Of a DNA stretch of 64,000 bases, positions 11,814 to 38,967 are shown piece after piece. The stretch covers positions 11,749,578 through 11,813,577 of the forward strand of contig NC_087073.1 in assembly GCF_026151205.1 (NCBI RefSeq), given 5' to 3'. The position numbers and the translations under genes are program-made. Below the pieces are notes generated by a model. The model ran no database searches. It saw nothing but the letters and a program-made list of their open reading frames with translations, and had not been told where the DNA came from. The stretch is from Bolinopsis microptera (Eukaryota; Ctenophora; Tentaculata; Lobata; Bolinopsidae). Numbering within the stretch: position 1 is the stretch's first letter; each line of letters opens with the position of its first letter.

Positions 11814-13321
11814 ATGTGTATCACTCCCCACTACCTGCTGATCAATCTTCTCCTGGTGACGTCATGTCTTGGCACTAATCAGGTACAATTTAGCATCCCC
11901 AGAATTATAAGTTGGTGATTTCTGTCATAGTGAAAAATCCACGCTTATCTTCTTCCAGCTCCATTTGATACTCAAAACATCTCCTGGCGACCAGCGGACA
12001 ATGTCCGCCGGACACATTTCAGTTTTAACCTTAATTTTATGACTCAAATCATCTCACAACTATGGCAATACTCTATTGCCATAGTTGTTCACCTCAGCCT
12101 ATCACTTAGTGCTTTCTTGATCTTCCAGTACTAAATATGAATACTTCAGGAACTGAACATAGACTATGTGGTTGTAACCGTAAGTGAGCTTACAAATCTC
12201 AAAGGAGAATTGGAACAGATGAAAATGTCACTGTCTCAGGAAATTGAGTTGGTGAAGAAAGAACGTCAGCAGATGAAACATTTATCAAATCTACAATTGG
12301 CAATAGTCAGGGGTGATGTTATGAAGAATCGGGCAAAGATTGAAGAAAGCAAGGAAAAGATTAACGTGATTCAAGAAAATGTTGGAGCTAACATGGAAAA
12401 GATTGACGTTATCCAAGAAAATGTTGAACATAACAAAGTAAAGATTGACGTTATCCAAGACAATGTTGAAGAAAGCAAGGAAAATATTGACGTTATCCAG
12501 GAAAATGTTGAAGAAAGCAAGGGAAATATTACCATTATCCAGGAAAATGTCGAAGAAAGCAAGGAAAAGATTAACGTGATTCAAGAAAATGTTGGAGCTA
12601 ACATGGAAAAGATTGATGTTATCCAGGAAAATATTAAAGAAAGCAAGGGAAATATTACCATTATCCAGGAAAATATTGAAGAAAGCAAGGAAAAGATTGA
12701 CGTTATCCAAGACAAAATTGAAGAAAGCAAGGGAAATATTACCATTATCCAGGAAAATGTTGAAGAAAGCAAGGAAAAGATTAACGTTATTCAAGAAAAT
12801 GTTGGAGCTAACATGGAAAAGATTGACGTTATCCAAGAAAATGTTGAAGATAACAAGGTAAAGATTGACGTTATCCAAGACAATATTGAAGAAAGCAAGG
12901 GAAATATTACCATTATCCAGGAAAATGTTGAAGAAAGCAAGAAAAAGATTGACGTTATCCAAGACAATGTTGAAGAAAGCAAGGAAAAGATTGACGTTAT
13001 CCAAGAAAATGTCGAAGAAAGCAAAAGAAATATAACCGTAATCCAGGAAAATGTTGTAAGTAACAAGGAAAATATTAAAGGTAACAAGGAAGAGATTGAG
13101 TCCCAAGCTAATCTGGTCAATATATACGAGAGGATGGTTTACCATGTAGATTGGGAGATGAAAAACATGGTGAAGTTCACAAAACAGCTGCAGGAGGATA
13201 TACAGTCGATGGAAAGTGGTGGCCTGTTAAAAAGAGACGACTTGCTCGAAGTGGAGATGGAGGTTAAGGGGGTGAAGCTGGAGATCGATCAAATAGAAAG
13301 TGATATCAGAGGACTACCAAG
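11814..13321 (+). CDS. Cassette A: signal peptide + 14-residue-repeat coiled coil
   Basis: Exon A1 (11814-11882, 23 codons) encodes a hydrophobic signal peptide with an LLINLLLVTSCLG core and ends CAG|GTACAA. Exon A2 (12150-13321) starts after CTTCAG in frame and encodes about 390 residues. After a Glu/Lys-rich lead-in come about 17 copies of a 14-residue unit (EESKEKIDVIQENV type, two heptads, 42 bp of DNA), then a shorter helical tail. The pattern predicts a long secreted coiled coil. The visible reading frame stops two codons after CCAAG, but CCAAG|GTAAGG is a good donor in phase 2, so I end the exon there. I found no C-terminal exon between 13322 and 14186. The phase fits the acceptor at 17162. 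With the two shared C-terminal exons the product would be 531 residues. Family and function are not recognised. Confidence 0.75.
12058..12087. repeat. Perfect short hairpin in intron of cassette A
   Basis: AACTATGGCAATA, a CTC loop, then TATTGCCATAGTT: 13-bp perfect arms, 62 bases before exon A2. Its position makes an effect on splicing conceivable, but a chance or relic hairpin cannot be excluded. Confidence 0.6.
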
Positions 13322-14186
13322 GTAAGGATGCAGATTTTCATTACTCTTTCAGAATGCAGAAGTACAGGGTGAAATTATGATTAAAGGGTGGTCCAAAAGT
13401 CAGTGCACAAATGTTTTGATAACTCATAACACCTAACAACTTGCAGGTGAGCCGTGAGAATTGAGATACTGTAAATTTTCATTCGAGGATTCGGTCGACA
13501 AAATAAAAATTCTTAATTCTAGTCGACACGTTTTCAACGGTTGAAATTCAACCGTCCTTGTAGTTTGTACACATTCTAAGAGCTGATTTTGTTCATCAAA
13601 ATCAAATCGATCGATGATGTGGACTATGGGTGATACTGTTATAAAACAGTAATCAAACAATTGATTTGACTTCAAGTTCAAGCATCGAACGGAAAATCGT
13701 CAAATCATATTAATATTAGTCTCTGAACCATGCTAATTGCAGTACATTTCTGTCCATTTTCAGAGAATTTTCAGTCAAGTCTTTAAAATTGAAAATGATA
13801 ACAACAAAAAATTTCTTCCACAGTCGTATTACGACTCGTAAAGTATATTAGGTGCTATTGCTGGTTGTAAAGGTTGTTGTCCCTCGCGCCATCATCAATC
13901 ACGTTACTGGTCACATCGTCCCTTTCACGTGACTTTGTTTATAGTTGACCGCACAGAATATTGTGCATTCTGCCATTTTGTTGCTTATTGACTGTTTAAC
14001 TATATGTCAGTTTCCATTTGTTTAGACTTCGATTTGTGCCTTTGTGCTTTCAAATGGTTTTCACTTTTCAGGCAGTAATTTTTCGAATAAATATGTCAAC
14101 GTACTTTAAGGGTTTCAGAAATGATCAACATTTTTTTAATTTATTGACACTTGACAGCCTCTAATCAAAATTGTATTAATTAAGGT

Positions 14187-16223
14187 ATGATTACGACTCC
14201 TCGCTTCCTACTAATTTCTATTCTACTGGTGACGTCATCTCTTTGCACTGATGAGGTTAAAAAATTACAAAGTTATACTTTTCCTATCCACGGTTCACTT
14301 CTTCCGTTCCATTTAATTTTAAAATCAAGACTTTTCCTGGCGAACAATGAACACTTTTTGGTTTTTATTTTAAGTTTCCTCTTAGTACAATCGAACCACT
14401 ATATACCGTACCTTTCTGTACCGGGTGCCTCGATATACCGTACCTCTATTTTCCCGCAAACTTTTAGTTAATTCATAATTAGCTCGTTTTGTGCAAGAGA
14501 TCTTATTTAATACAGCGCATATCGTGGTGCATGTCGAGCTGTATTCCATCACAAGCCCCTAATGAGGTATATGACTATGAGACGCTTGACAGATTATTTG
14601 AAAGGCTACAGATAGTGATACTGGGGTCTGGGATTATGAACCTCACTTTACCTGTTTTTTTAAATACTGTACACTTTGCACTTTTCGTTTCCCAAAAAAA
14701 GCCCGGTATATAGAGGTTGGACTGTAAAAGCATATTTAATTTGCGATATGAACAAGTCAATGACTTCACGTAGTAGCGTGTACAAGTATGATATTTGAAT
14801 CTCGACCCAGTCAATTAGTTAATGATTTCTGACGGATTTAATGAATGTTAATCCTTCAGGGACCGGACTCCGCCGAAGTTACTATGGGCGAGCTTAAAAG
14901 TCTTAAACTTGAAATGGAGCAGATGAAGTTGTCAATGGCCCATGAAATTAATATGGCGAAGAGGGCAATAGAAGAAAATAAACAGACAAAGTTATCGCTG
15001 TCCAATGAAATAGAGTTAGCGGTCAGGAATGAAGAGAAAAAGAAAAAGAAAAAAAAGAAAGTTAAGAAGGTGACACCGACTATACAGACAAACAGCAATG
15101 AAGTAATGGAACAAGATGAAATCCTGGAGAGACTCGCTGAAATGGAGTTGTCATTAACTGAACAGTTGGCAATGGTCAGGGATGATATGGAAAAGAAGAT
15201 AATTGACGTAATTCAAGAATATGTTGAAGATATCCAGGAAAATATTGAAGTCAACAAGGGAAATATTGGAGTCAACAAGGGAAGTATTGAAGTCAACAAG
15301 GGAAATATTGAAGTCAACAAGGGAAATATTGAAGTCAACAAAGACGATATTGGAGTCAACAAGGAAAGTATTGAAGTCAACAAGGGAAATATTGAAGTCA
15401 ACAAGGGAAATATTGAAGTCAACAAATACGATATTGGAGTCAACAAGGAAAGTATTGAAGTCAACAAGGGAAATATTGAAGTCAACAAGGGAAATATTGA
15501 AGTCAACAAAGACGATATTGGAGTCAACAAGGAAAGTATTGAAGTCAACAAGGACGATATTGAATTCAACAAAGACGATATTGGAGTCAACACGGAAAGT
15601 ATTGAAGTCAACAAGGACGATATTGGAGTCAACAAAGACGATATTGGAGTCAACACGGAAAGTATTGAAGTCAACAAGGACGATATTGGAGTCAACAAGG
15701 ACGATATTGGAGTCAACAAGGCAAATATCGAAGTCAACAAGGGAAGTATTGAACAGGTGATCAGTGATGTAACCTTACATAAGAATGATATGACGTCTAT
15801 GCAGGAAGACATAGCTTCGATGAACAACAGTGAGGAAGCTCAAACACTGGCGGAAGAGATGAAAGAAACAAACCTTAGCAACGTTGTTGCGAATCAAGAT
15901 GAAATCCTGAAGAAACTCGCTGATATGGAGTCGAAAACTAACTCGCTCTCCCAGTACCACTCCTCCTTTGAGTCGAGTGTTGGGAACTTAAACCGGCGAA
16001 TGGATCAGGTTCAGAGGAACGTTGGCTTTGCAAATGGGGAGGTGAGAGAAATGTCAGGTCTCGCTGAGCAACTAAAGTATGAGTTAGAGGCGTTGAAGAA
16101 AGAAGAAGCCAATAGAGTAACAAGAAACGAGCTGATTGCGGTGAAAACAGACGTTCTGAAGAATAAGGGTACTATGAGGGATAGTAGCTCAGCTATCAGA
16201 CGCGACATGAATAACAAACCAAG
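14187..16223 (+). CDS. Cassette B: signal peptide + heptad-repeat coiled coil
   Basis: Exon B1 (14187-14255, 23 codons) is clearly homologous to A1. It has the same length and phase, a hydrophobic LLISILLVTSSLC core, and the shared nucleotide run CTGGTGACGTCAT. Exon B2 (14860-16223) begins after CCTTCAG and encodes about 455 residues. These are a charged lead-in with a run of eight lysines, about 24 tandem heptads of the IEVNKGN / IGVNKDD type (21 bp each, about 15240-15745), then a non-repetitive helical segment. B2 ends AACCAAG|GTAAAA in phase 2, exactly as A2 does. Joined to the exons at 17162 and 37452 it gives a 595-residue predicted secreted protein: signal peptide, coiled coil, small Cys-containing domain. 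The lead-ins of A and B are alike (GEL..LK.E.EQMK.S), so the cassettes are tandem duplicates whose repeats diverged. Antisense open frames here come from the repeats. Confidence 0.8.
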
Positions 16224-17161
16224 GTAAAAATACTGTTTATCATTAGTCTTCCAGATACTTACTAGGACAACAAAAATGCAAACTACAGCTGTACTCCCCC
16301 TCTTTCACGCTCCCCTGTACATTGTACAACGCCGTTATTTTATGTTAAATTGACACTGCGCTATCAGTAACAGTAACAGTAAGTATCATTCTTCACGACA
16401 CCGAAATTCTACATTGGGAAACAGCTGTAATTTAGCTGCATAATACTGAAGGAGAGACCTGAATTTGAAATTGCACCGGTGAAAGATCCCGACTGTACGA
16501 ATCTAGGTAAAAGAATTCGTGAGTCGATTTGTCATATAACCGAATCCTTGCTTAACACAAACATCATGTTGGAAATCCCTGTCATCCCTCATATATGAAG
16601 TCTGGACAGCAAGAACTCCAAAAATATGCGTAACACTATTTCATATCACTAAGTATAATCCAAAATACGAATGGAACCATTAGAGACCGACTCGAGCTAT
16701 ACAATTTCAATATAAATAAGCCCCTATTTCAACTTATTCACTCATTGTTGCACTGACTTTTGGACCGTCCTATATATATATTCAATATATATATATATTC
16801 AACTCGAGAACGTGAAACTGAAGAGTATAGAATTTATTCTCAATATATGACACATGTAACTGCGACTACTTTTTTTGAGCAGTAAAATGTAAATATCTTA
16901 TTTATCGGCGGAAATATAGATTGAATTCGACATCTGGGGCTGATTGTCTCATACTGTTGGGAAATAGTAATTTAGCGGAGAGGTGGAACTGGAATTGTGC
17001 GAGTTTGTAAGCAGTAGGAACATTGAATGTGTTAGCGATTAACCAATCATCTGCCAATTAACCAGATTAAAACAGCCATGCATGATGCACCACCTCCCCA
17101 CTATTATCCAGGCAGCTGTAAGTGTAACTTTACGACTACAAATAACTCTTGATTTCCCCAG
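16224..17161. other. Intron between cassette B and the first C-terminal exon
   Basis: AT-rich, with a TATATATATATTCAATATATA snap-back near 16772-16800. No exon seen. The stretch just before 17162 ends in a pyrimidine-rich acceptor (CTTGATTTCCCCAG). Confidence 0.6.
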
Positions 17162-20100
17162 TCCGGTTATCATACTGAGCAGCGAAGAAAAGAAGCCTAA
17201 AGGAAATCCCAAATGTGCTAGAGTCTGTGCTGGAACTACAGGTAATTGTTTTACATTATTTATTATTAACATAGCTATTTTTATTCCGAGCATTATAACT
17301 ACAAGTACAAGAGCCACATTCCACTGTCCACGGCTTTACGATCAGTCGATTATTCTTGGCATGGTTATCTACAATTATAAATAATCATTCTCAACATCGA
17401 CTCTTAAAATGAGAAGATCATTTTCTTAATAATATAATAGGCAATAGTTGTAATACTGGCTACTATAATAATAATACTGCAAAACATCTAACATCCGCGA
17501 AGTTCCGCATCTAATGCGCGCGTTCTTTCTGTCAAGGTTTATAAAACACTTTCACCTTTTATTGTAAATTAAATTTAGCGTCATACATTTCACTTCAACT
17601 TAAAATGTGACTGAAAATACGGTTCCACCTGATCATCCTCAATAAATAAAAACAAGTTACTGTCCAAATATTGTGTGCATGATAATTGAAATGGCATCAT
17701 TCTTAAGTGCAGCTGGATGTGTAATACCAAAATGTTGATACCAAAATAGTTCTCAAATTCTCGGTGAACAAAACCCCCTTCTGAAACCCAAGGTGGAAAA
17801 GATCAATTGTATAGGAATATTCACTTGCACTGTAAAACCTTCAAACTTGATATGACCTCAAAAGAAAATTAGATGTATTTACTATTGTAAACTCTTTTAA
17901 ATTAGATCAGAAGGAAAGCTCTATCCTAACCTTAGTCCAGTACTTATGTAGTTTTCGCAAGTAAAAAGTGGCATCTGATTCCACAAAATATTTCATTTAA
18001 AATCGACGTTTTGATGGTAGTGTCACGAATATTTCACATCACAATTGAGTAGATAACTACGATGAGTGGTAGAAGGACTGAAGTGATGGTAGTAGCACTG
18101 TTCTCCTCGTTACAGCTGTCAGTGTCACACTCAACACAAGTGTTGTTAGCAGCATCAGTAGCACAGGGTCCACATCCATTGTGAGGGAAAGAGTAGTCTG
18201 CATCAGCTGCTTCTCCAGGTCTGAGGGACGTATATTTAATCACTAACAGTATTACCGATGGAATAAAATAAAATGAAGGAAGGTGTATCTTTACATGGCC
18301 ATTTGCATTGTAGGCCCCCTGTAGCTGTAGTAAAACCCCAGTTTACCGTGCAGCTGTTTACTTCCTCTAAATTGCACAGTAAATCGTTTCCCCTAAGACT
18401 ACTAATCATTAAACAAATTTAATTTTTACGATCTTCTACTTTAACTCAATTTGAATGATAAATAAAATGTGACTTTATCCTAATATCTATAATACTAATA
18501 ATCGATTGGGCGACATCTGTCTGAAAATAGTTTATTCAGACAATAGTTTATGTCGGATCCTACCGTGCGATTTTCTTGAAACTTTCCATAAAGTATGGTG
18601 GTTATAGGACGGATAATCTGTGTAAGTTTGAGCGAGTTTCTACGTGCCAAATTTGAGATATCACTTCAAACACAAGAAAATAGTTCTGTCGGACAGATGT
18701 CGCTGTCGGACAGATGTCGTGTTACCTGTTTGGACTGAGCGAGTTCATACTCCTCTAACTACATTAAATTAATTCCTTCTGTAACGTCCTCAATAAATGT
18801 AAAAGATTTGTAGTGTTGTAATTAATTACCTGTTGCATTTTATCAGAGTATCTACAAATCTGCCACATAAAGTGAACTCAGTTTGCTTTACCCAAGATGT
18901 CTCCGTGTTGTTCCACGCATAATTGTAACACTCGAAGTTTTCTCCAACCTCGAGAGGTGTGTTGCATCCATCAGTATCACAGGTAGAGCAAGTCGTACCT
19001 TTTTCGGCAAGCAAACAACCCCCACATTTGTATTCACCGCTGCTCATTCCAGTGTATTCATTGAACTTAGGCCTGGATAACAAAAAGTGTGATATACGAT
19101 TCACTCTCAGGAAGCACGTGAAAAACTTTGGTATTATAAAACATGGATAACTATAGCTTAGATGTCCCAACTCTGAATGACGTGCTACGGCATAATGGGA
19201 ATCGGATCTGTTGATCCATCAGCTCTTATCCCAATAAACTGTGAATAGTCGATATTCATTCTGCATACTAATTTCAAAGTCAAATTGTTTGTTTGCTGTC
19301 TTTTTCCTTAATATAAGGGACCAGGTTCCAACATGGTGGATCAATTGATGGTTACTGAAAGAGGGGAGTAAGACCAATAAGATTCATTTCAGTTTATGAT
19401 AAAAATATTAATCCTAGCCAAACTTATTGCAAATTGAAGGGTCAGCGCACATATGAATATTGCAAAGGGCGCATGATTTTCGGTCGCAAACATCTCCAAA
19501 TGGCAAATTTTGCAACTTAAATTTCCTACTCCTCCTAAATATTTTGAGCAATCAAAATTCAAACTTGATAGGCAAATTAACATAAATAAATGTCGATTTA
19601 ATTTAATACGACAAAGACCTTGCCAGTCAAAACATAGTTGCTGTACTTGAAAAATACGGTTTCGTACAGCTAGTATCCAGGCCCACCCGTATTACTGATC
19701 ATTATGCAAATCTAATTGATCACGTTTATACAAATGACGTGCTCAACACACTAAGCTGCAATGTATTAACTGTGGATATCTCTGACCATTTAGCGACCCT
19801 AACCACAATATCACTCGGAAATAATTTACAGAAGAATGGTAGAGTGAGTGCGAGTCGTGAATAGCCCGTTATAGCACGTGAGTTCAATGAAGCAAGTAAT
19901 CATGAATTCAAAAGTCTGATCATGAGTGAAAATTGGAGTGAAGTTCTCGAGCAAGTGAGTGCCGACGAGCAGTATAACAAATTTAGCGAGACGTATTCAA
20001 GGTCAAAAGCAAACTTTTGACCCTGGAGTTTTGGAAGAATTTCTCAGGGGTCTCTGTATCAACTCAATTTTTTTTTTGTGTATGGTGTAGTAAAAAGTGT

Positions 20101-23100
20101 AGTAAAAAAGGTACACTTTTAATAACACTTACGACCAGTCACACCAGAAGACGTCCATAGCATTATAAATACATTAAAGAACAAGGCCACCCTTGACAAG
20201 AAAATTGGGCATATGAAAATAGCTAATATACCGATGTTAACTTTACTGGCACAGTAATACCAGTGCACAAAGGAGGCCTGAAAACTGACGTTACGAACTA
20301 TAGGCCCATATCATTACTGAGCTCTTTCTCCAAGATCTACGAAAAACTTATGCAACTTAGTCAATATGGTTTTAGACCTGGAATGTCATGTGAACATGTC
20401 CTACTAAACGCCCAAAATACCATACTTCAATCACTTCACAGTAAACAAATCGCTGTGCTACTTCTACTAGATTATTCAAAAGCATTTAATGTTATTGAGC
20501 ATTCTATTCTGCTCAGAAAATTAGAACATTGTGGTATTTTAAAAATGGCTCGAATCTTATTTGAGCGACCGCCAACAGTTCGTCACTATCAATGGAGCTG
20601 ACTCGAGCCCTAAGCCTAGGGTACATTTCCCGAAAAACACCCTAGGGCGTTTAATTCGAACAATTGAAACAAATCAAATTGGCGGGCAAACGATCCGTTT
20701 CATGATATGTATAAAACAATACCAATCATCAGTGCCCGCTAATTTGATTTGTTTCAATTGTTCGAATTATGATGCTCCTGCTTAACTGCAGTCGAGCACT
20801 CTCTTTGGGAAACCAAACAACAACTTTTAGTTTGACGATAACATCGTTTATTTTGTAATGTTATTTAATGCTCCTAGCAACAGCTAGTAGAGCCCTTTTG
20901 CTAGAAGAGAAAACTAAAGCTGTATATATATATGGATTCCTCCAAAAAAACATTGCATCATATATATTATATATATATATATAATAAATAGTTGTTGCTT
21001 GGTTTCCCAAAGAGAGTGCTCGACTGCAGTTAAGCAGGAGCATTATAATTCGAACAATTGAAACAAATCAAATTGGCGGGCAAACGATCCGTTTCATGAT
21101 ATGTATAAAACAATACCAATCATCAGTGCTGAATGCTGATGATTGGTATTGTTAATTGTTTTATACATATCGTATCATGAAACGTCTCGTTTGCCCGCCA
21201 ATTTGATTTGTTTCAATTGTTCGAATTATATATATATATATTATGATTGGCTACTGGGACACGTCATACACACGGTTGGATTGTTAATTCGGTTGAAATA
21301 CCTTTAAATCCATTATCACCATAATCTGAACATGATTTATTAAAATTTTTTTAATTATATATATATATGTTATTAGTCAGCCACAACTATCAGTAAAACA
21401 ACGCCTTGACTTCAAATGTCGGTAAAATGTACCTTTACAGTCATCCTCAAATTATTTGTTATATAGTAGTGTTGAAAGTATTAAAACTTTAAAAGTATAT
21501 ATATATATACAAAATGAAACGACCGGTTGAGTCAGACAAATGTTTCAATCATGATACAAAACCTGAAATTTGTAACTCTCGGCTTGCCGATTGAGCACTG
21601 TCAGCATACGACACCACCCACAATTATATGTATACAGTTTTAATACTATCAACACTTCTATATAACAAATAATTTGAGAATTGATGTAAATAAATGATGC
21701 AAAGAATTACGAGGATCTAGTCAATACCGCTTTTTTATTGTGTAGAAGTTCAGCAATGAAATATATATATATATACTCAGTATGTTTTAGTTTTGTACCG
21801 TTTTAAGTCACATAGTTTTGTACGTCTTCCTAAGATTTGTTATCCTTTCCTAGTTTGTAAGTTATTTTAAAGATTTGTGTATATTCCAGTTGCTTTTAGA
21901 ACAATTTTATCTCAGATAACGATGTTTAATAAATGATGCAAAGAATTTCGAAGATCTAATCAACACCGACTTTTAATGTGTAGGAGTACAGCAACGAAAT
22001 ATATATATATATGTGTTTATCCGTACCATTTTACTGACACCACGGCATCAACTTTAACACGACTTTCCGCGAAAACCGTAAAAGATATACAACTGAAACT
22101 TTTTGACTGGGTCAAATACTTTAATGGCCTCCAAATTAGCATGAAAAAATAAAAATTTTGGCCAAGGAATAGGAATTTTAGAGCCCAAAATTTGGACCCC
22201 CAAGTGGTGTCAAAATGTACTTCTTATACTCTGACAGAAAGTTCCAGAGAGTTTTATTTGTCTGCACTTAAAATGTATCATCTTTGAAGTTACCAGCAAA
22301 AGAATAGGATTACTTGATCAATTCGATTGGGTTTTTGCATTGCATCGGCATTCGGCATGTATTTTCTATAATAGGTTAAAAGGAATCTAAGATAGTGACC
22401 TAAAATCTTATGTCAACCTCCCGGACTAATGTGGATTAGAAAAAAAAATTAGTCTATCATGATGGCTAAACACGTTGCACGATGTAATAAATTTATTTGG
22501 AGTCGTCAATTAATTTATAATTATCAGTATCACTGTACATTTTTGCTGAATTTTCATGATAAATTTACAAATTTTCTGACTGCTGGCTTAAAATTGATAT
22601 CTTATTCAAAAATATTAGAATCGATAAAACGTTTGATCTGATCAATCGATTTTGATACTTTGAATAGTAAAATTTGTAGAATTTCTTGAATTCTCATGTT
22701 GATTTATCTTGGAGACATCTATCGTAAAGATATTTGAAGTGTTTGTTGTCTCCTCCACGGCACATTTTTCTGTTGCTCATAAATCATACAAAAAACAATC
22801 ACAAAGAAAATACGCACTGACTGCACGTCTCAACGTTATCGGAACAAGTTACAAGACTAGCAGATCCGTCATCTCCAACAATACATTGCAGTGCCCCTGA
22901 AAAGAAAGAAATTGAAAGTACATATTTGGTTGTTGGTCTCTTACATTATTGCAGCTCCTATGCTATGGGAGGCTTTTTCTGTAATTGTCTACACAAATTC
23001 TGAATAATCTGTTTAAAGATCAACTTGGCCTGTTATAAAAAATTTTAACTCGGACCTAATTTTAGGAGCGCAGCAAATTCCCTTGTTATAAAAATTCGGG

Positions 23101-29100: not shown

Positions 29101-30262
29101 CTGTCAGAAAACATGCATTGATATTGGAGTCAGACAGTTGCTCAAATACTTGTGCCGTTTTATTACATAGTGACCTCGTGTTAAACAGTCCGACATTTAG
29201 GTTGAGAAGCGTAGTCTTTACATGTTTTTTGAGTACTCTGTTCTTTGTCGAAGACTCTCTTTCTCCAGCCTTATCATGGGACAGTTTTCAGCACCAGAGT
29301 GATGGGTGTTTCAAGATTCTCTGTATGATTCATAAGTGGAGTGTGAGCAATTGGTGCATCTGTGACTTCTTCTGACTTTCTGACCTCTTTGTAGGGACAA
29401 GCCCGGGTTATGTGTGATGCACTACAATACATACAAATAACATCAGCTTCCTTGCACTGAGATGAAATGTGTCCCAGTTTCTGACATCGGAAGCACTGCT
29501 TAAGATCAAATCTATCGACTACATTACATCTGGAATTTCCTATGTAAATGGACTGATTGTTTAACTGGAAATGCCTTATTTCAGGAGACACTTTAATCCC
29601 AACCGTAGTGTAGTCTCTTCCATAATTGACATACACAACTTTAAATGTTCTATCATGATTGGTCACCAAATCTTTAACATAATGATACTTTTCCAAAAGC
29701 TTCACTTCCATAAAGGTTTTAACCTTCTCTCGAAATTCAGGAACTGGTAGATTTTCAAAGACAATGTGGGAGATTAAGTTGTTTATATGTGACTTTCGGG
29801 AACATTTTCTTTGTATCATTAACAGTGATTTTGGACGAAGTTACAGCTGATGAGTTTGCAAGGGCTATTTTCCCATCCTCTCTATCTTTTTCTGAAGGGA
29901 AGGAGATAACAATTTTGCCTGTCTTTGGTTCAGGGGTCAAGAAGATCATGGGTATTGTACCAAGGGCATTGCTAGCTAGCTTCCCTGCTTCCTCAAGATT
30001 AATATTACTAGCTTCTATCTAGTGAAGGTGGTGTGGCAAAGCCTAAAAGACACAGTCAGATTGTTGTCAGCTCGCTGACTGTAAGGGAGGAGGTATATCC
30101 GTATTTCGCTGCTACTGATGCAGTCCTTGATCTGGCAATCAAGGCTTCTCTGTTTTTCGTCTAACTATGTACCGTTGGGCTTGTGGAACCCGTAAGGGGG
30201 ACAATGGACATACATAGGTTGGAATGGTTTTGTGCACCAAGAGAAGTGAGGGAATGAGGGGT

Positions 30263-30304
<42 letters not shown>

Positions 30305-33300
30305 TTAGAGAGTTGTTATGGTGGTTTGGATCAGTAGGTGGAGTGTTTGGTTGGAGCCTTCTGTTTTGCTGTATAGCATTTTAGTCACTCCGCAGTTTAT
30401 TAACTGTGTCTCAACTCTGTTTTGTTGAATACTGCTGGGATTGGCCAGCTACCATGGGGTAAGACGGGTGGCAGACAACTGAACCCAATTGAACCTAGTT
30501 CCCACGCAGTTAACAGGCACCCAATCAGCTTAATTCCCAATTTTTTACTGGATTAGAAACCAAACTATGGGAAGAGACTGAGAGGATGACTCCGTAAAGG
30601 CTGGATGGCCTGTGTTCTCGAGGATGCGGCTGACAGGTGTCGATAACATCAGCAGAGACGCAGTAAAACAGTTAGCTCTAAAACTAGTGGAACACCGTAG
30701 AAGAGATGCGTGTGATGCAGGCCACTCCAACGACTAGGAGGAGACCTCTTCAATCTTCATGTAGCATGTATGTATTGATATTTTACCGGGGTAAGCACAG
30801 GGCTCCAATGCTCTAAATTACAGTGGTCATGATCTATCCTATAGTGATAATGACCACAGTCATATCACTGAAAATCCGGTAAGACCCATATGATAAGATA
30901 GATAGTGTGCCTGGTTTTGGTCTTTAGGTTGAGTAGTGGTCGGAGCCTGCAGCGGATCTGCAATAGAGAAGTCAGACGGGGTCATAAAAGTGGCTGCCCG
31001 GGTTAACAATAAAGGCTTTGTAGACATCCCTCCACTTTCCTGTACTCCGGAAAAGGACAAATTTAGGTAGTCGAGAGTCCTCGACGGTTGAAGCAGGAGA
31101 GGGACAGAGTTGTATCTGTGTATGTGGACGTCGGTTTGACACAGTCAAAGGCAGGAATATCCATCGGGGTCGAATGAAGTGCATTTGGGAAGGGGAGTCG
31201 TCGGCTGGCAGTATGCCTGTAACTTCGACGGAGGTATCTAGCCAGGACAACAACCACAGTGCTAGAGATATCCGGGCTCTCCTTGACAAGATAATTTCAG
31301 TCGAACCACATGCTAGCAAAAGAGACAAGGTGAAGTGGCCGGCGTCCAATGATGGTCGATGGAGTAAGTTTGATGAGTGTGCGGTAGAAAAGTTTGCAGT
31401 GGTTCTCAAGCGGAAACCATTTCAAGAGAAGATGGTGAGTCATTGTGATGTAGTGTACGACGAGGGTGTCAAGTTGTTTGGTATTGTTGAAGTAGGTGCT
31501 GGTAGTGGAAAGAAGTCCATGAGCTTTAAGAACAGGCGAAAAGAGGAGATTGACAGCCTGATTGAAGAGAGGAAGCAGTTGAGGAGGAAGAAAAGGAAGG
31601 CAAGGAGTGAGATAGAGAAGAATGGTTATAAGGCATTATTGAGAGTGTTGGCTGGTCGGTTGATGAAGTTGAGAAGGGCTGAGAAAAGGAGACAGAAGCA
31701 GAGAGAGATAAGGAGAGTTAGAGGGGATTTTGGACGCGACCCTTTCAAAACAGTCAAGGAAGTGCTAAATCCAAGTCCAGGCGAGGAGCAAGAGTGCCCC
31801 GGGTAACTACGGGATCCCGTACACAGTGTACAAGAGATGTCCTGGTATTGCCAAGAATCTCTGGGACCTGTTAATAACTGGATATAAGTTAGAAGAATAT
31901 CCTGACAATTGTAGGTACTTTGAGGGTGTCTACATCCCAAAGGCGGATGGCGACTTCTCAACGAGTTCAGGACGGCCTATTTCCCTGGGTAACATTCAAG
32001 GGAAGATTTATTTGGCGATCCTGGCGAAGAGGTTGACCAGCTTTGTTGTGTCGAATGGATATGTAGACCTCTCTATACAGAAGGGTGGTGTACCAGGCGT
32101 CCGTGGTTGCACAGAGCATTTTGGTGCCATGTGGGAGGTATTGAAGGAGGCAAAGGTCAAGAAGAAGGATTTGAGTGTAGTATGGCTTGACCTGGCTAAC
32201 GCTTACGGAGCGGTACCCCATGTTCTGATTGCCAGGGCCCTCAGCTCCGTTTCTACAACGTCCCCGAGAAGGTTATCAACATTATCCTACGGTACTTCTC
32301 CGGGGTATTCGGAAGGTTCTCCTCAAGAACGGTGACATCAGACTGGCAGCAGTTTGAGATAGGAATCTTCATGGGGTGTGTGATATCAGTCATCTTGTTT
32401 GTCTTGTGCATGAACCTTGGACATGAACACCTAAAGTCTAAGGTTCCGAGAAGCATTGAGTACATCAAGGATATGATGACATACCGATACCAACTCTGAA
32501 GCTGTTTATGGACGATAGCTGTCTGACCACTGCACTGCACGTGCAGAGGACATGCAAACGTTATTCAATGTGTTTCAGAAGTACGTGGACTGGTCCAGAT
32601 TTAAGTTAAAGTCGGTGAGGTGATTCCGACTGTGTCAGAAAAGCCGATAAAGTTCCTTGGGAGATGGATAAGAGTGGAAGGAAATGACAAATCAGTCATC
32701 GACTGAACCAAGGTTGACCTGAACACTTTTCTTCGGAGACTCGATGAAAGTTCTCTTACTGGACTCCAGAAGGGCTGGGGATATCAGTACATGGTCCTTC
32801 CAAAGCTGAAGTGGCCTCTTGCCATCTATGATATTCCGATCACAACAGTTACCAGATGGGAACAGAATACTAATAGTTTCCTCAGAAAGTGGTTAGGGGT
32901 AGGGCACACTCTGAGTGGTCTTTGTCTGTTCAGTCAATCATCCAGTGTGGCCTTACCGGTGAGCAGCTTGACAGATACATGGAAGATAGAGACGTGTCGA
33001 CTGTTGCAGTCTTATCAGACATCTAAGGATGACCTGATTAAAGCAGTCCAGCCCCAAGTTCGTTCTGGTAGAGTTTGGAGGCCTGAGACAGAACTGGAAG
33101 AGGCCAGAAGAGATTTAGTCTGTGAATCAGTGCGAGGGATGGTGCAACCGCAAAAAATAGTTGGCATCGGTTTTGGTGATTGGAAAAACCTTGGGAGAGG
33201 ATGGATGAGCGGGAAAGAGAGAGAGGGAGGGTATGCTGAGAGTGAAGGAGAACATTGAAAGAGAGAGGGAGGTGCAAGTATGTTCTCTGGAGATGCAGAG

Positions 33301-36300
33301 CAGGTGGGGTGAGTGGAGAGAGCTCGTAATGAAGACTTCCATTGTGATCGCCGAGTGAACACTTATAAGAACAAGGCCGGCGATGGAAGACCGTTTATTG
33401 ATTTTGTTCCTGCTGGGAGGAGAAAAGCAGGTACAGACGACCGGAAGGAGAGCCGTGGTTTTGGGATCCTAGGTGGGTCTCGGGATTGGATAGTGCTGTC
33501 AGACATTGAGGGACAGCTTAAGTTTCCCATTATATTTGGAAAGCTTTCAGTCATTATGGCCTGCCATGTAAATACATTCTAATTATACAGGCATTCTTTA
33601 AGGGGGCCGGGGGGGGGGGGTCTTCATCAAAATTCTCTCGAAATTGACTTTTTAGTTGTTTCTGATAGAGGGGAGTGATATCTATCAGCTGCTTTAGATA
33701 CAGACTATGCAGATGACATGGCTGTACTGGATAACAGCAAGGAAGGTCTTCAAGAAACAACTGACCTTTTGTGTATGTATGGTGCCCAGGGAGGTCTCAG
33801 AAGCAAACTCTGGAGGGAGATGATACGTCACAAACGGGAGTTAATTGGTGCAGGCCACTCGAATGTGCAGCATAGGCAGAGGTGGAATGATTCCTAGATT
33901 TCTGGACGGAGTGGATCTCTCCACTCAGTTGCGAAAGTCTTGCTTTCAATGATGAAATCTCCACGGTAGGCATGCTGTAAGATACAGCACTTGAGATGGC
34001 ATCAGATACAGCTTGGATGTTTTTACTGTAGTCAACACTAGACTGGAGAGCTTCATCCAATCTAGCTGAGGTGCTGCTGTTTGGCTTGGAATGGATTGAC
34101 GTGAAGCACCATGGACATTCCCAGTACTGAAGGATGGCATCAAGATCAATCTGACCAATCTGGTTTGCTCCCTTAAGGTTACTGCAAGAGGCGTGCCAAT
34201 GCTGAGAGCACCCGCAACATTTGAGAAGCCATTCTTTGCCCTCAACTAAATTGAGGGTTAAATGAGGAGTGCCAGGGGTACCTGTTAAACGTTCAAGAAA
34301 CTTCCTAAGATACCCCTTCAGTGCATACTGTAAACATAGTACTATTAACTATTACTATTTATGTTCGAAATAATTCCTGTGATTCCACTGCTCCTGCAAT
34401 GTCACCACCGTGGCCAAAAAAGTGACAGATCTTGCTTATTTTTAATGGAACGTGTCCAAAAACATTTTTAAAGCAATTTATGATCGAATACTAGTGTTCA
34501 TTGATTGTTGAAAGAATCATATTAATAACTTAATCTATTGATAAGTTGATAGTAAATCGATTAAGTCATAATTAAGGAAAATTCGTGAAAAATAATTTGG
34601 GGAAAATAATGATGGTGACCTAAATTTTGGTAGTTCGAAAATGTGGTGTTTTTTGTTTGTTGAAAAACCACCGACTTTCGTGAGTTTCGTACCATTTAAA
34701 TATGTCCCGTAAGATAATTAAAACTTCTCTCAGTTTTACTATTATAATTTGAAACAGGAGGAACATCTAGGAGAAAATAGTCTTGTTCAGTTCGCAGTAC
34801 ACGTACAGGTTGACTCTTGATGTTTAAAATACATTTGGTGATATAGTCTGGACCTGTGTGGTCATTCAGAAATATAAGTTTATTATAATATTAAGTTCAA
34901 AATTAAGAGTATGATATAAATACGTTATACATAACGTATCAAATTTATTGTGATGTTACATATTGTGTCTTGTTAAGTTATCACTTCATGTCGGATCACA
35001 TCGCGCCATATTACAATTATTAGTGCTATGGTTTGCAGGGTAATGCAGGGTATGGTATCCTAGGAAGATTAGAGATACTAGCAGGAACCCGAATAAGTAT
35101 TTAACCCTAAAATGGTGTCAAGACTCAAGAGTCTAAAATAATTATTACCTATTTAATTTTGGGCTCTAAAATTTTGGGCTCTAAAATTCCTATTCCTTGG
35201 CCAATTTTTTATTTTTTCATGCTGATTTGGATGCCATTAAAGCATTTGACCCAGTCAACAAAAGTTTCAGTTATATATCCACCAGCGGGCTATATTTGCA
35301 CCAGCAGGCCTGCGCAGCCCGCTAGTTAGAAGACCTGATATATCCCGGCCCGCTATCACAGCCTGCTGATATAGCGGGAGCCCGCTATACCATCGGGCGA
35401 TATAATAATATAGCACGGAGATATATATATTTTATTTTTGTGTCCGGTAGGGCTGCTCATGCAGCTCGTGTGCCGATGACATGAAACTTAAAGTAGTATC
35501 TTAAACTGACGTTAAACACACCACAAACTATACGAACACAAAAAAACAACAAATTGAAATTCCCACACTGCTCAAATTTTGGGGGCTAATAAACTTTAAC
35601 TATTACAAGACACGTACACCATATTTATGTCACTGACACGTCTACATCTTAATGGTTCCCACGGCTCAAGGAATGCACTATATCACTTATCGGCCTCAGT
35701 CCCTATACCACGCAGCGCAATATGATTGGCTGACATTGAACACGTGACGTGTTACTATGGTTGCAAAAATTCGTGACGACATAAAGTCTAAGTTGGTGCT
35801 TATTGTTTATACAAGATCCAGTGTTTCTTTTAACTTTCTAACTGTTCGTTTCATTTCTGCAATAGCTCTCTTGAGTCTCTATTTCAGTTAATAAATATTG
35901 AAATTTTAGGCCGGAATTTTACGTGTAATTCTATTGTGTTCCCGAAAGAAATTTTGCCCTGTTTTTTGTTTTGAAACTACGTAAGCAAGTACTTCGTGAT
36001 CTCGAGCTATCTAATTGGTAACTGATGGTATTACAGTCAGTTTATAGTTATACAGTTGATAAAGTCATAGCGAGCACCCAATTGTTTGATCGGCCTTACA
36101 CAGTACACACGGTGCACTGATTAAGTTTAACTGTCATTGTACATCTGACGTGTTGTAATGGTAACAGAAATTCTTTGTTACTCGTAGCATGGATTAATGG
36201 AGAATTATGGAGTTTTTAATCTATGCTAATGCGATTAAGTGATTAACATCCCGTTGACTGTTCATCGATTCGGTTGATGTGTAATACCATTATAGTATGT

Positions 36301-37726
36301 CTTCTCCTTTTGATGGTGTAATTCTAAGCTGTGTAGTAAGCTGAATTTTGTTTTTTTATATTCAGGCCGGATTTGTACTTGTTAATATATAATTGTGTAC
36401 CGAATAGAAACTTGCCCTGTTTTGACACCGCCAGTTAAATGTTGTTTTTGCGAATTTGACGATCTGCTCTCACGTTTTCTCCGTCTCAAACTCTCCTGGT
36501 AAATTTAGTCATAGATGCTTACAGTTGACGAACTCACACTCATGGCGATGGCCTGCATTATAATCGTTTACAATTACTTGAAGCAATAAGCTGAAACTTT
36601 TTTTGATAACGGCCGGTTTCTCGTCGGTTCTCTATTCTTTTATTGTGTTCTATAATCTATATAATCAGTAATGTTGCCCTGTTCTGCATCTTAAACCAAA
36701 GGCTAAAGCATGATTTTCTATTAAATTTGCAGCTTTAGTTCGAAATCTTTTACTTCTATTTGCTATGATTGTTGAAAACTGTAAAGCGCCCGCTGGTGGA
36801 TATACTACATATCCTACTCGCCTCGCGGGCGGAATTCCGTATAGCACTCGGGCTATACGGGGATATGTCGTCCTCAGGCTGTGCGCCCTCGAGGACATAT
36901 ATTATATTGCCGCGTGGGCGCGGGCGATATAATTTTCCGCCCGCTAGGCTGCGTGGATATATATATATATATCTTTTAGGGTTTTTGCGGAAAGTCGTGT
37001 TAAAGTTGATGCTGTGGTGTCAGTAAAATGGCACATATTTGCATAAAAGTACTTTGCACCAGTACCACATCATTTGGGATTGATGGTACACGTGTTAACT
37101 TTAAGGGGGCAGGGGGGTCTTCATGGAAATTTTCTCAAAATCGACTTTTTAGTTGTTTCTGATAGAGGGGAGTAATATCTATCAGATGCTTTTGATCCGG
37201 TGAAAAAAATATCGCTCCTAGCCGAAATTATTGACGGTCATAGGTCTGCGTGTGTGTGTAATTGTATTGCGCGAGCGATTTTTGATTGCGTGCCTTGAAA
37301 ATCGAGTACAAAGCTTAGAGCTAGACGATTAGGGATTAGAGAAATTTAAACATAAGTGATTTTAAAGATTTCCTAGAACAAAGCTTTCGACAAGTAGGTT
37401 TCTAGTAATATAATGTTTATTGTATACCTGTTATGCTCATCTTTGTTTCAGGGAGGATCGCATCTGAGTGGATTAAAGGAGATTCGAACACGATTTTAAT
37501 TGCCGTAGACATCAGCGAGTGTGGTTTTAGCAAGATCCCAACCATCATTACCTCGATTGAAGGAAAAGCTTACCATAACCAAATATCTGGTCCTTCTTCT
37601 ATATATAACGCAAAAGCTAAAAGTTTCGGTGTACACATCTTCTACAAGGACTCAGATTTGAAAAAAGACCTTGCAGTGGACTACTTGTGGAACATAGAAT
37701 GGATTGCTGTTGGTTACATGTGCTAG
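17162..37726 (+). CDS. Shared C-terminal exon pair: secreted-domain end of the coiled-coil gene
   Basis: Exon 3 (17162-17241, 80 nt) follows TTTCCCCAG, accepts phase 2 from either cassette and encodes a linker ending in KCARVCAGTTG. It leaves with ACAG|GTAATT in phase 1. Exon 4 (37452-37726) follows TTGTTTCAG, needs exactly phase 1, and encodes 90 more residues starting RIASEWIKGDSN with ISECGF, then a stop. AATAAA lies at 37913-37918. Together they form a compact domain opening with C-x3-C-x-GTTG and having a later CGF. I recall similar uncharacterised domains in predicted secreted proteins of marine invertebrates, but cannot name the family. The intron between is about 20.2 kb, swollen by mobile elements, and contains the antisense LU gene. 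The join over that distance is inferred from phase and domain continuity; transcripts would settle it. Confidence 0.68.
18034..23353 (-). CDS. Two-domain LU (Ly6/uPAR-like) protein with GPI-type tail, 4 exons
   Basis: Exons are 23353-23290, 22896-22818, 19072-18830 and 18220-18034, all phase-consistent, giving 190 residues. Residues 1-22 form a signal peptide. Two LU-like domains follow with eight cysteines each: 26, 39, 46, 64, 67, 76, 79, 84 and 96, 117, 127, 145, 148, 157, 160, 165. The last five cysteines of each keep identical spacing (C-x2-C-x8-C-x2-C-x4-C) and both domains end in CDTD-x-CN, the LU signature. The C-terminus (SATTITSVLLPLIVVIYSIVM, split by a small-residue stretch) looks like a GPI-attachment signal. 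The donor of exon 2 (CA|GTGCGT) is non-obvious but is the one that keeps phase. LU proteins act as surface ligands or receptor modulators; no specific role can be read. The gene lies inside a 20-kb intron of the coiled-coil gene, on the other strand. Confidence 0.83.
18508..18720. mobile_element. Small TIR element (CGACATCTGTC ends)
   Basis: Left end CGACATCTGTCTGAAAATAG; the right end carries the reverse complement twice (CGGACAGATGTCG twice) next to CTATTTTC in reverse. About 210 bp, non-coding, in the last intron of the LU gene. The duplicated right end is odd. No target-site duplication was recognised. Confidence 0.6.
19620..20625 (+). mobile_element. Degenerate LINE: endonuclease tail and RT fragment
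   Basis: In forward frames, about 19650-19860 reads as the end of an apurinic-type endonuclease (RPTRITDHYANLIDH...DISDHLATL). About 20263-20540 reads as reverse transcriptase (TNYRPISLLSSFSKI, QYGFRPGMSCEH, LLLDYSKAFNVIEH), with the YADD box absent. Stops and frameshifts lie between, so it is dead. It sits in the 3.7-kb intron 2 of the LU gene, antisense to it. It belongs to the CR1/L2/Jockey side of non-LTR elements. Confidence 0.85.
20652..21230. mobile_element. Nest of palindromic MITEs (families A and B)
   Basis: Family A has ends TAATTCGAACAATTGAAAC and an inner GGCGGGCAAACG block. Copy 1 is at 20652-20769 with most of its right arm deleted. Copy 2 is at 21045-21230 as a nearly full fold-back. 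Family B (20772-21043) has ends ATGCTCCTGCTTAACTGCAG and CTGCAGTTAAGCAGGAGCAT plus a long AGAGAGTGCTCG arm, bracketed by TA on both sides. B sits between the two A copies, so the structure is either B inserted at a junction or tandem A copies with B between. Confidence 0.85.
21231..22019. repeat. (TA)n-punctuated repeat block
   Basis: Five or more TATATATATATA runs. A segment AAATGATGCAAAGAATT(A/T)CGA(G/A)GATCTA occurs at about 21692 and again at about 21931. No coding sequence. It looks like eroded inverted-repeat elements whose ends are TA-rich. Confidence 0.6.
22020..22215. repeat. Dispersed repeat, intact copy
   Basis: The sequence from CCATTTTACTGACACCACGG through GACTTTCCGC, GACTGGGTCAAA and CCAAGGAATAGGAATTTTAG recurs in reverse orientation at 35155-37031. 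There it is split by an insertion. This copy shows the uninterrupted junction. Confidence 0.85.
23455..23833 (+). mobile_element. LINE C-terminal region, zinc-finger and REL-endonuclease type
   Basis: One forward frame gives a CCHC-like cluster (CRLCRNHYETIDHILNGC) followed by WYEHRAEKVLENEKVK, LLWDFHIQSDHVIE and a CRPDLLLVE segment. This order of zinc cluster then RPD is what R2/NeSL-type restriction-like endonuclease LINEs have after the RT. A TGA replaces the expected Trp near 23640. The copy is cut by the hAT MITE at 23842. Confidence 0.75.
23842..24247. mobile_element. 406-bp hAT-type MITE with 8-bp target duplication
   Basis: Termini CAGTGATGCACGCCG and CGGCGTGCATCACTG are perfect inverted repeats. 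They are flanked by the direct duplication CTGGTTGG at 23834-23841 and 24248-24255. An 8-bp duplication with CAGTG ends is the hAT hallmark. The ends are very GC-rich (GGCGGCG runs). There is no transposase, so it is non-autonomous. It is inserted into the LINE fragment before it. Confidence 0.95.
24440..24707 (+). mobile_element. LINE C-terminal tail
   Basis: A forward frame reads RRLRLAGHAYRHPEL, ILWKPSHGHINRGRP, a short LLDNLIADTGL helix and a basic end near 24707. The G-H..R.PE...LLW.P..G...RGRP pattern is common at the C-terminus of CR1-like LINE ORF2. The upstream part is missing. Confidence 0.7.
24711..27153. mobile_element. Element X1: TTAA-flanked, G-run ends, motif-studded
   Basis: TTAA at 24707-24710 and 27154-27157 bracket ends GGCCAAAGGGGG... 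and, in reverse, GTCCACAGGGGG..., each followed inward by TCCGAGGTC. A TTAA target with short TIRs is the piggyBac pattern, but no transposase is present. The outer right body (26524-27060) has at least five copies of GAGGTTAAC or its reverse (26627, 26676, 26866, 26999, 27027). The centre is occupied by another TIR element (24927-26523). It shares G-run ends and the GAGGTTAACC motif with X2. Confidence 0.8.
24927..26523. mobile_element. 1.6-kb TIR element full of TGATTCAAAAATCACA motifs
   Basis: Ends GGACACGTTCAAAAAAAGG and CCTTTTTATGAACGTGTCC are inverted repeats of about 40 bp that continue through TGGCACTAGAGATTGATTTT. They are flanked by TTAT on both sides (24923-24926, 26524-26527), a likely 4-bp target duplication. 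It is non-coding. The body carries roughly 16 copies, in both orientations, of a motif close to TGATTCAAAAATCACA, at about 25111, 25264, 25317, 25404, 25514, 25590, 25640, 25705, 25755, 25838, 26003, 26164, 26239, 26318 and 26377. Sequence between the motifs is unrelated. It is inserted within X1. Confidence 0.85.
27380..28800. mobile_element. Element X2: 1421-bp TTAA insertion studded with GAGGTTAACC
   Basis: TTAA at 27376-27379 and 28801-28804; ends GGCCAGAGGGG and CCCCTCTGGCC are perfect 11-bp inverted repeats next to long G or C runs. Joining the flanks at a single TTAA restores the endonuclease frame (EYLDSL then THLPGRL), so it is a clean insertion. It is non-coding. About ten copies of GAGGTTAACC in both orientations lie at 27522, 27561, 27575, 27696, 27838, 28026, 28071, 28226, 28468 and 28650. 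Two of them extend to the perfect palindrome GAGGTTAACCTC (27696, 28026). A long fold-back occupies 28298-28602. Confidence 0.92.
28298..28602. repeat. Large inverted repeat inside X2
   Basis: Arms of about 140 bp (28298-28437 and 28464-28602). They include ACCTTTCGAT, AACCGGCCACTCCCTGATCT, CCAAACCTCAAG in reverse, and TCGAATTATGAGG. The arms are nearly identical, so it is recent or maintained. Motif copies sit at its tip. Confidence 0.9.
30265..30302. repeat. (GA)n microsatellite
   Basis: An uninterrupted GAGAGA run of about 36 bp. Confidence 0.95.
30540..30740 (+). mobile_element. LINE 3' end (GCAGGCCACTCCAACGAC family)
   Basis: The end of a reverse transcriptase ORF: a GTCGATAACATCA block and the tail CDAGHSND followed by TAG and GGAGGAGACC. 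The same tail occurs at 40966-41180 with a better preserved RGRPRINWL segment, and in part at 33830-33860. These are 5'-truncated copies of one family. Confidence 0.75.
31090..33480 (+). mobile_element. R2/NeSL-like LINE ORF2 remnant
   Basis: Forward frames in order: 31174-31806 is a basic helix-rich lead-in with an R-R-K-rich stretch. 31826-32240 is the RT fingers and palm (VYIPKADGDFSTSSGRPISL, NIQGKIYLAILAKRL, QKGGVPGVRGCTEH, VVWLDLANAYGAVPH). After a frameshift near 32250, MGCVISVILFVLCMN and then FMDDSC stand where Y/F-ADD is expected. 32791-33255 is the thumb and connection (LPKLKWPLAIYDI, NSFLRKWLGV). Further pieces run to about 33480. WLDLANAYGS.PH and QKGG.PGV.GC.EH are typical of the R2/NeSL branch. 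Several frameshifts and stops (e.g. 32704) mark it as dead. Confidence 0.82.
33598..33706. repeat. TTAAGGGGGC repeat, copy 1
   Basis: TTAAGGGGGCCGGGGG then TCTTCAT, CGAAATTGACTTTTTAGTTG and ATAGAGGGGAG. About 100 bp match 37101-37196. It starts at TTAA and a G run, as X1 and X2 do, so it may be one end of a related element. The opposite end was not found. Confidence 0.7.
33707..33860 (+). mobile_element. LINE reverse-transcriptase YADD fragment
   Basis: A forward frame reads DYADDMAVLDNSKEGLQET, the RT active-site block, and soon after the LWREMIRHKRELIGAGHSN tail. The region between palm and tail is missing, so it is an internally deleted copy. It follows directly on the TTAAGGGGGC repeat. 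Confidence 0.75.
33797..34260 (-). mobile_element. LINE ORF1 remnant with PHD-type finger
   Basis: On the minus strand, about 34250-34090 encodes a PHD-like zinc finger (CCGCSQHWHASCSNL ... WECPWC), followed by a Ser-rich helical region to about 33800. PHD fingers are known in ORF1 proteins of CR1-like LINEs. The segment before the finger is missing. A frameshift is needed to join the two readable parts. Confidence 0.65.
34261..35154. other. Non-coding AT-rich spacer
   Basis: No gene, clear repeat or RNA signal seen. A GGAACGTGTCCAAAAAC string at 34447 resembles the terminus of the 24927 element but is too short to call. Confidence 0.5.
35155..37031 (-). repeat. Second copy of the 22020 repeat, split in two
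   Basis: 35155-35274 and 36967-37031 are the reverse complement of 22080-22200 and 22030-22080. The join in the intact copy (AAAAGATATACAACTG) falls exactly where the 1.7-kb element sits here. A GGGCTCTAAAATT unit is duplicated at 35160. Confidence 0.85.
35275..36966. mobile_element. 1.7-kb insertion with TATATCCAC ends and GCGGGC blocks
   Basis: Begins TATATCCACCAGCGGGCTAT and ends GCCCGCTAGGCTGCGTGGATATATA, an inverted TATATCCAC with nearby AGCGGGC. An inner inverted copy (GCCCGCTGGTGGATAT) lies at 36788-36803. The ends are GC-rich palindrome-laden and the middle is AT-rich. No transposase frame was seen. It interrupts an older repeat at a TATA-rich site. Confidence 0.78.
37101..37196. repeat. 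TTAAGGGGGC repeat, copy 2
   Basis: Same sequence as 33598-33706 in the same orientation, with a shorter G run. It lies 250 bp before the last exon of the coiled-coil gene. Confidence 0.75.
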
Positions 37727-37854: not shown

Positions 37855-38967
37855 ACTCAATGAAACAAGAAATTCAATGAAACAAGAAATTTAATATTAG
37901 CACATTTTACAGAATAAAAAGATGTAAAACAATTCATAAAATATAATGCCCATTTGGTGTCATCAGTTACCTAATGTTGCCTGATGGCTTCACGCTAACT
38001 GACGAGATCGGTGCTTTGCTGTTTGCTTCGTGAAGCAACGACATGCATTGTCAATCAAGATCACTCAAAAAGAGCACCTCACATAAAAATAACAAATACT
38101 TGGTGGCCATAGCACTTGTTTCTGATCTGGTAATCAGTTGTCATACGCTGTATGACCCGCCGCGCACGAGCGCGGCTCCCCCTGTATCGTCAGGACGATA
38201 AGTTTCACCATAGTAAAACGACCGTGGGGGTCACGACGTGATACAAAAAAACGCTATTTAGTGAAACAACAATGGGGGGCATTGTAAATATTTCAAGAAA
38301 ATAAAGCGGCTTGCACTATTTCGTTTAAGGGTAATGCTCGTAAAATGTTTGTTCCAACTATATAATAAGCAATTATAACCATTGATAAAGAGGCCATAAT
38401 CTTTCGTCAGCACTCCAATATCCACCTTGAAGCTGCATTTTATATCCTTGTGGCTTGAATTACACAATATAAACTAAAGCATGTTTTAGTGTAGACTTTT
38501 TGCCACAACAAGACTTCAACCTAATAGTAACAACTATAAACAAAATCCCTAATGTCTGCTAACAATGTTGACGGATGTTACTCGTCTAAATTTCTTCGAA
38601 GTAGCGAGCGCCGCTTTCTTCTCGAAATGTTATGGCCCGATGGCAAGTGCTACGAAGTAGCGCACGCCGAGCCAGACCATTAACAATGGTCAACTAACAA
38701 GTAACAATGCAATTTTCTTTTAGTCCTAATGTGAGCCTTGTCTCTAAAAACTTAACTGAACTAGCGTTTCGGTGTGTGTAAAAGCTTCCAGGCACGCGCA
38801 TTCCTTGCCCCGTTAGTTATTTGTCCTTCCAAAACCAAACTAGCAGTCAAGGACAAAAAGTCATACACCAAATGGGCATTATATTTTATGAATTGTTTTA
38901 GATCTTTTTATTCTGTAAAATGTGCACAAAAATTAAATTTCTTGTTTCACCGAATTTATTGTTTCAA
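37855..38967. repeat. Inverted repeat pair, ~105-bp arms, 0.9 kb apart
   Basis: 37855-37972 (AACAAGAAATTTAATATTAG, TAAAACAATTCATAAAATAT, GCCCATTTGGTG) returns in reverse at 38862-38967. It overlaps, and is not nested with, the 38138-39424 element, so the two structures arose separately. The left arm includes the likely polyadenylation signal of the coiled-coil gene. Confidence 0.8.

Follow-up and report, generated by a model that had tools for sequence, protein, structure and literature searches.

The question raised by this locus of Bolinopsis microptera is whether two tandem coiled-coil modules, each headed by a signal-peptide exon of its own, are served by one and the same C-terminal end piece. 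The stretch of DNA analysed, referred to here as the window, is 64,000 nucleotides long, and its coordinates below count from its first base. The modules, A and B, and the two exons that together encode a C-terminal domain, C1 and C2', are placed as follows:

11814-11882, + strand: signal-peptide exon of module A, 69 nt, phase 0, MCITPHYLLINLLLVTSCLGTNQ, donor CAG|GTACAA; homologous to the signal exon of B
12150-13321, + strand: coiled-coil exon of module A, 1172 nt, phase 0 in and 2 out, donor AAG|GTAAGG
14187-14255, + strand: signal-peptide exon of module B, 69 nt, phase 0, MITTPRFLLISILLVTSSLCTDE; its frame is open in both paralogues, C5 and C6
14860-16223, + strand: coiled-coil exon of module B, 1364 nt, phase 0 in and 2 out; conserved in the C5 and C6 paralogues
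17162-17241, + strand: exon C1, first part of the C-terminal domain, PVIILSSEEKKPKGNPKCARVCAGTTG, phase 2 in and 1 out; present at C5, C6 and C11
37452-37726, + strand: exon C2', which codes for the second part of the C-terminal domain; its acceptor is TTTGTTTCAG|G and its stop codon TAG

This map of a two-module locus is confirmed. The 69-nt phase-0 signal exons that an earlier note had described for A and B are both in place, and the large repeat exons end in CCAAG|GT and leave in phase 2, as it had said. Its observation that no C-terminal exon lies between the modules also held, since neither a family HMM run over that interval (13322-14186) nor a motif scan found one there. The acceptor of the A coil exon at 12150 was picked by open frame and homology to B, with 12189 and 12219 also in frame. 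Searched in six frames, the whole window gave clear family-HMM scores only at C1 and C2' (next matches at E of at least 10). The motif CxxxCxG[ST] occurred on the + strand only at C1 in the scanned intervals 11000-37450 and 37700-64000, and neither HMM nor motif scan detected a second C1 within 20 kb upstream of C2'. By the crude measure of pyrimidine counts the C2' acceptor was the best of four (13/17), against 12/17 for C1 and 9/17 for the B coil exon. Given the homology of A and B, the same exon plan in paralogous genes, and tandem arrays that Tandem Repeats Finder reports with 0% indels in both modules (42-nt units in A, 21-nt in B), the layout is more than chance.

Conceptual splicing predicts a protein of 531 residues for A-C1-C2' and of 595 residues for B-C1-C2', neither of them interrupted by a stop. 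Joining the A coil to the B coil, by the same procedure, is out of frame and runs into a stop after 22 codons. As each coil exon is entered in phase 0 and left in phase 2, serial joining shifts the frame, and the two coils would be mutually exclusive in productive mRNA.

Two paralogous loci bear on how B is joined downstream:

C5, 5598001-5638000, - strand: paralogous locus with a B-type gene consisting of a signal exon, a coil exon whose ends match those in the window, C1 and C2
C6, 2326001-2356000, - strand: paralogous locus with a B-type gene of the same four parts, its coil exon again with the same ends

C5 and C6 are 94-99.6% identical to one another over most common stretches, and either is about 80-84% identical to the window. 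The C1 exon of C5 ends in A instead of G, with the GT donor retained. The gene structure of these paralogues supports the predicted joining of B to C1. Between the window and the paralogues the N-terminal part of B has a dN/dS of 0.31 (C5) and 0.40 (C6) over 93 codons, and the C-terminal part 0.26 over 42 codons. C1 differs from its C6 counterpart at 8 of 80 bases, and its flanks differ by 18%. Substitution in the B exons between the window and C6 (9-16%) is not below the 7.6% of the B introns and the flank 5' of them, where the alignment has many gaps. The frame is kept all the same, and this may reflect rapid protein change or an alignment effect. A region upstream of B is alike at C5 and C6.

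The C-terminal domain belongs to an expanded family. A search of the genome (264.65 Mb, 232 contigs) with the C2' exon gave 32 matches at E<=0.01, of which 31 were to other sites than the query itself and the last few were weak; 30 were fetched as loci. The consensus is EV.I..GEE...CAKVCAGTTG|R..T.W...I...VDIS.CGF..IP.ITTS.EG...HW...G...VY....F......W.WNVEWIAVGYTC, and several copies carry coiled coil and domain in one open frame, some with a signal-peptide-like start. From motif positions, the break between C1 and C2 appears to fall at the same place (G|R) in six further copies (L007, L008, L014, L016, L019 and L028), which supports the C1-C2 split as such. Alignment A1 comprised 15 of the 30 loci, and a tree of 28 rows was built without L033 (no clean motif) and L035 (truncated). 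In L019 (C2:18108905-18112144) signal-peptide/C1 exons stand at 613 and 1218 before one C2, and the first has an in-frame stop, so that this locus would be a second example in which N-terminal modules are duplicated and one of them is dead.

Sequence searches gave no significant Pfam or PDB match for the domain. Over 15 members Pfam returned single weak matches, the best (E 0.0082) in one member, and the PHROGs search gave scattered weak matches and no significant family. The H-type lectin domain (PF09458) was considered and rejected: 1 of the 15 members matched at E=0.028, and a genome search with the model gave 13 weak matches, none above the cut-off and none at the listed domain copies. Pattern searches of viral and prokaryote contigs found 45 and 26 matching stretches, respectively, none encoding a relative. 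The predicted structure of the C2' exon alone had a pLDDT of 37 and was unusable. Literature searches naming ctenophores found no paper on this domain family among the matches listed, which is weak evidence of novelty; as far as the searched libraries show, the family appears uncharacterised.

The second half of the domain is where the window departs from its paralogues. At C5 and C6 an exon C2 directly follows C1, ahead of sequence from a neighbour gene on the opposite strand. The corresponding part of the window contains the following:

17469-17748, + strand: 280-bp stretch in place of the C2 of C5 and C6; without domain sequence, and common to C11
18034-18211, - strand: probable last exon of the opposite-strand gene, in a block conserved at all four loci; open in the window
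18826-19218, - strand: open reading frame without a Pfam match, probably another exon of that opposite-strand gene

Past C1 the alignment of the window with its paralogues runs to 17376 (C6) and 17468 (C5), and it resumes at about 17749-18211 (C6) and in three pieces to 18164 (C5). The fourth locus, C11:6197546-6197956, matches the 280-bp region at 85% identity over the full 421-base query. C1 and the exon of the neighbour are present there too, and no C2 exon was found in the 10 kb read. Site patterns group the window with C11 against C5 with C6 at 33 sites, against 2 and 0 for the alternative groupings; as the comparison is unrooted, it fits a loss in one pair as well as a gain in the other. 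We take the neighbour to be a Ly6/three-finger-like gene, by its CxxCxxDxCN pattern and not by search. Its exon is apparently frame-broken at C6 (about 22000-22185 of the reverse complement), and at L067 (C11:6192001-6202000, - strand) the neighbour-exon stretch occurs as four tandem copies, spaced about 800 bp from one another (at about 4404, 5210, 6016 and 6815 of the reverse complement).

C2' itself is separated from C1 by a gap of 20.2 kb. Since the conserved block between the two holds the probable opposite-strand exon, C2' lies beyond a neighbour gene, among LINE pieces: LINE-like endonuclease and reverse-transcriptase matches in the interval fall just below the curated cut-offs and a zinc knuckle above. 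C2' is 41-44% identical to the C2 exons of C5 and C6, which are 88% identical to each other, and it forms the longest branch (1.65) of the 28-row tree. A clade of C2' with those two exons is neither supported nor rejected (p-AU 0.289). Between the window and C5, dS is 1.36 over the C1 and C2 exons and 0.25 over the N-terminal part of B. About 130 bp after the C2' stop begins a repeat of about 104 bp, found at 37857-37960 (with an AATAAA at 37913) and again, inverted and some 1 kb away, at 38865-38966, the two being 92% identical; at least 40 further copies occur in the genome, nearly all 96-99% identical. Elsewhere in the window lie a short minisatellite (1430-1640, with GTGTAGGG(T)ATTGTGTGTAA-like units) and, on the - strand between 51367 and 61871, open reading frames with EST1, SNF2/helicase-C and folliculin domains, the first of them presumably SMG5/7-like.

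The divergence of C2', its place past the neighbour gene, and the 280-bp stretch that the window and C11 have where C5 and C6 have a near C2 are what could be expected if the A/B gene had no C-terminal half-domain at all. C2' would then be a stranded exon of some other family member, and the proteins would end by read-through of C1 or of a coil exon. Reading through C1 adds about 46 residues before a stop, and an AATAAA follows at 17641. Against this, C2' is open, has a phase-compatible acceptor and retains 21 of the 23 columns in which at least 85% of the remaining 27 rows agree; no other C1 was found in the 20 kb upstream, and six other family members appear to have their exon break at this same place. 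The openness of C2' taken by itself is not significant as frame conservation, with 1.7 frameshifts expected and P(0)=0.18. We regard a gene lacking the half-domain as unlikely, if a serious contender. C1 and C2' are two orphan halves of one domain, phase-matched and on the same strand, and most simply belong together; the last exon of the end piece looks to have been exchanged for a distant copy. As worded in the earlier note, the single set of C-terminal exons is not supported: the searches of the window found only these half-domains and C1 accepts phase 2, but the two need not be one set, as the paralogues carry a different C2 directly after C1.

Whether A is still a working module is the other half of the question. 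At both C5 and C6 the region of the A signal exon is recognisable upstream over about 230 bp, but two insertions of 5 bp each disrupt it and a stop follows after ten codons; a search for the A coil exon did not find it at either locus. With a frameshifted signal exon and a missing coil exon, A is dead in the two paralogues. The presence of this counterpart makes at least A's signal exon older than the split of the window from C5 and C6. The N-terminal parts of A and B, aligned over 58 codons, have a dS of about 1.3 (dN/dS about 0.38), which makes the duplication old. The unique 3' part of A matched nothing else in the genome significantly, the next hit having an E of 0.88, so no A-type gene was found elsewhere. 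A dispersed repeat at 9943-10532 shares 91-95% identity with its copies at C6, and in both paralogous loci a piece related to it lies directly against the dead A signal exon.

The state of A at C5 and C6 invites the view that it is a dying relic in the window as well, with all protein made from B and the apparent sharing a leftover of the layout. L019, with its stop-bearing C1 copy before a live one, would be a parallel, and the acceptor closest to A is unproductive for it. In the window, however, the signal exon of A is open, its coil runs for about 390 codons up to a consensus donor, and its repeat array is without indels. Non-coding DNA aligned between the window and C6 contains 30 indels in 1751 bases, 22 of them frame-shifting. 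Placing half of the indels on the window branch, and presuming uniform rates and no homogenising of repeats, 7.8 frameshifts would be expected in the 1241 coding bases of A since the C6 split and none is seen (P(0)=0.0004); for the 491 bases of its unique parts the expectation is 3.1, again with none seen (P(0)=0.046). Under neutral decay A would be expected to be broken by now, and its openness counts as support for A as a module. A relic in the window therefore seems to us quite improbable.

A could instead be a separate short gene, its coil exon left unspliced, its message ending in the A-B interval and its product a secreted coil devoid of the domain. An in-frame TAA directly after the A donor (...GLPR*) and AATAAA signals at 13502 and 14086 would suit such a message. 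Yet the consensus donor is kept at that very point, and B has the same in-frame stop after its donor while its paralogues continue to C1; we give this possibility little credence. Least probable is that the A signal exon serves mainly as an alternative first exon for the B coil (11882 to 14860), with the A coil optional, for although both exons are phase 0, the join is open, and at C5 and C6 the signal exon has outlasted the A coil exon, it is frameshifted there and serves nothing.

The two coils differ in their cores. Between 12340 and 13076 the A coil exon repeats a 42-nt unit 17.5 times, and in this coil Ile alternates with Ser or Asn at d. The B coil has 24 consecutive IxxN heptads (15244-15747), with Ile at a and Asn at d, to our knowledge an unusually long run for an animal secreted protein. 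The heptad pattern of an Asn-at-d trimeric coil, a hydrophobic residue at a and Asn at d in repetition, is thus found in B. In bacterial trimeric autotransporters, Asn-at-d coiled coils form trimers, as reportedly set out by Hartmann in 2009. The B heptads resemble these coils in having Ile at a and Asn at d. They differ in being mostly IxxNKxx, against the IxxNTxx that we associate with the bacterial proteins, and in belonging to an animal secreted protein known from its sequence. In a search of PDB sequences the B repeat had no match below 0.01, the first being low-complexity matches at 0.01-0.03, and the sole trimeric autotransporter to appear was UspA1 (E=1.5). Should Asn at d indicate a trimer in this protein as well, the modules would set the properties of a stalk while the domain stays fixed.

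The variable-constant layout of the window, two 5' modules before one C1 and one C2' (the latter not close to the C2 of the paralogues), may be compared with the variable-first-exon arrays of the UGT1 and clustered protocadherin loci (PMC3325998, PMC1885805), where tandem variable N-terminal modules precede one constant set of downstream exons. It is unlike them in having just two modules of two exons each and in that the A donor meets an internal acceptor of B first, so that exclusivity would rest on frame; the product here would be a secreted coil protein, and the locus is known from genomic sequence. In a search for mutually exclusive exons, Pillmann et al. 2011 point out that tandem gene duplicates and alternative starts can look alike, and that in tandem gene duplicates every exon is often repeated (PMC3228551). 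Unlike such duplicates, this locus has C1 and C2 unrepeated. By the sequence features named in the same paper (PMC3228551), the A and B coil exons are a candidate pair of mutually exclusive exons: homologous, adjacent, equal in phase, similar in length at 1172 and 1364 nt, and breaking the frame when used together. They are unlike such exons in that a separate signal exon precedes each of the coils, and the choice may therefore be made by promoter.

We tentatively favour, at somewhat less than even odds, the reading that A is an alternative N-terminal module of the B gene, old but still open, its coil kept apart from that of B by frame and joined to C1 and probably to C2'. The locus would then be one transcription unit of an expanded secreted family with signal peptide, coiled coil and cysteine-bearing C-terminal domain. 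A, with its signal and coil exons, would have arisen long ago by tandem duplication of B's N-terminal half and would possess no C-terminal exons itself. Transcription begun at A would give a message that passes from the A coil to C1, skipping the B coil, and a message begun at B would use the B coil. C1 would be spliced to C2' over a 20.2-kb LINE-rich intron containing the opposite-strand gene, with C2' in the role of the near, different C2 of the paralogues. The separate promoters, the A-to-C1 and C1-to-C2' splicing and any function are what we infer from this arrangement. The weak point of the model is that the first acceptor after A's donor is that of the B coil exon, which is unproductive, so that A needs a skip. 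The substitution level of the B exons, no lower than that of the B introns, also counts against it.

The idea in the earlier note that A and B are exclusive modules of one gene is borne out as far as their homology, their interchangeable phases, the B-to-C1 joining supported by two paralogous genes and the open state of A are concerned; against it stands the death of A in both paralogous loci. That A and B share one C-terminal end piece is plausible. The likely product would be a stalk, multimeric and perhaps a trimer, that presents the domain.

The fullest version of this picture, in which an Asn-core coil and a coil without such a core are swapped onto one C-terminal domain under exclusivity set by frame, and the last exon was captured from a distant family member across an antisense gene, is possible but on balance doubtful. 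If it is true, a secreted multimer could vary its stalk and leave its head unchanged, and a gene may swap its last exon with that of a distant relative and keep the frame. The four related loci, in the window and at C5, C6 and C11, form a small natural experiment on the birth and death of modules.
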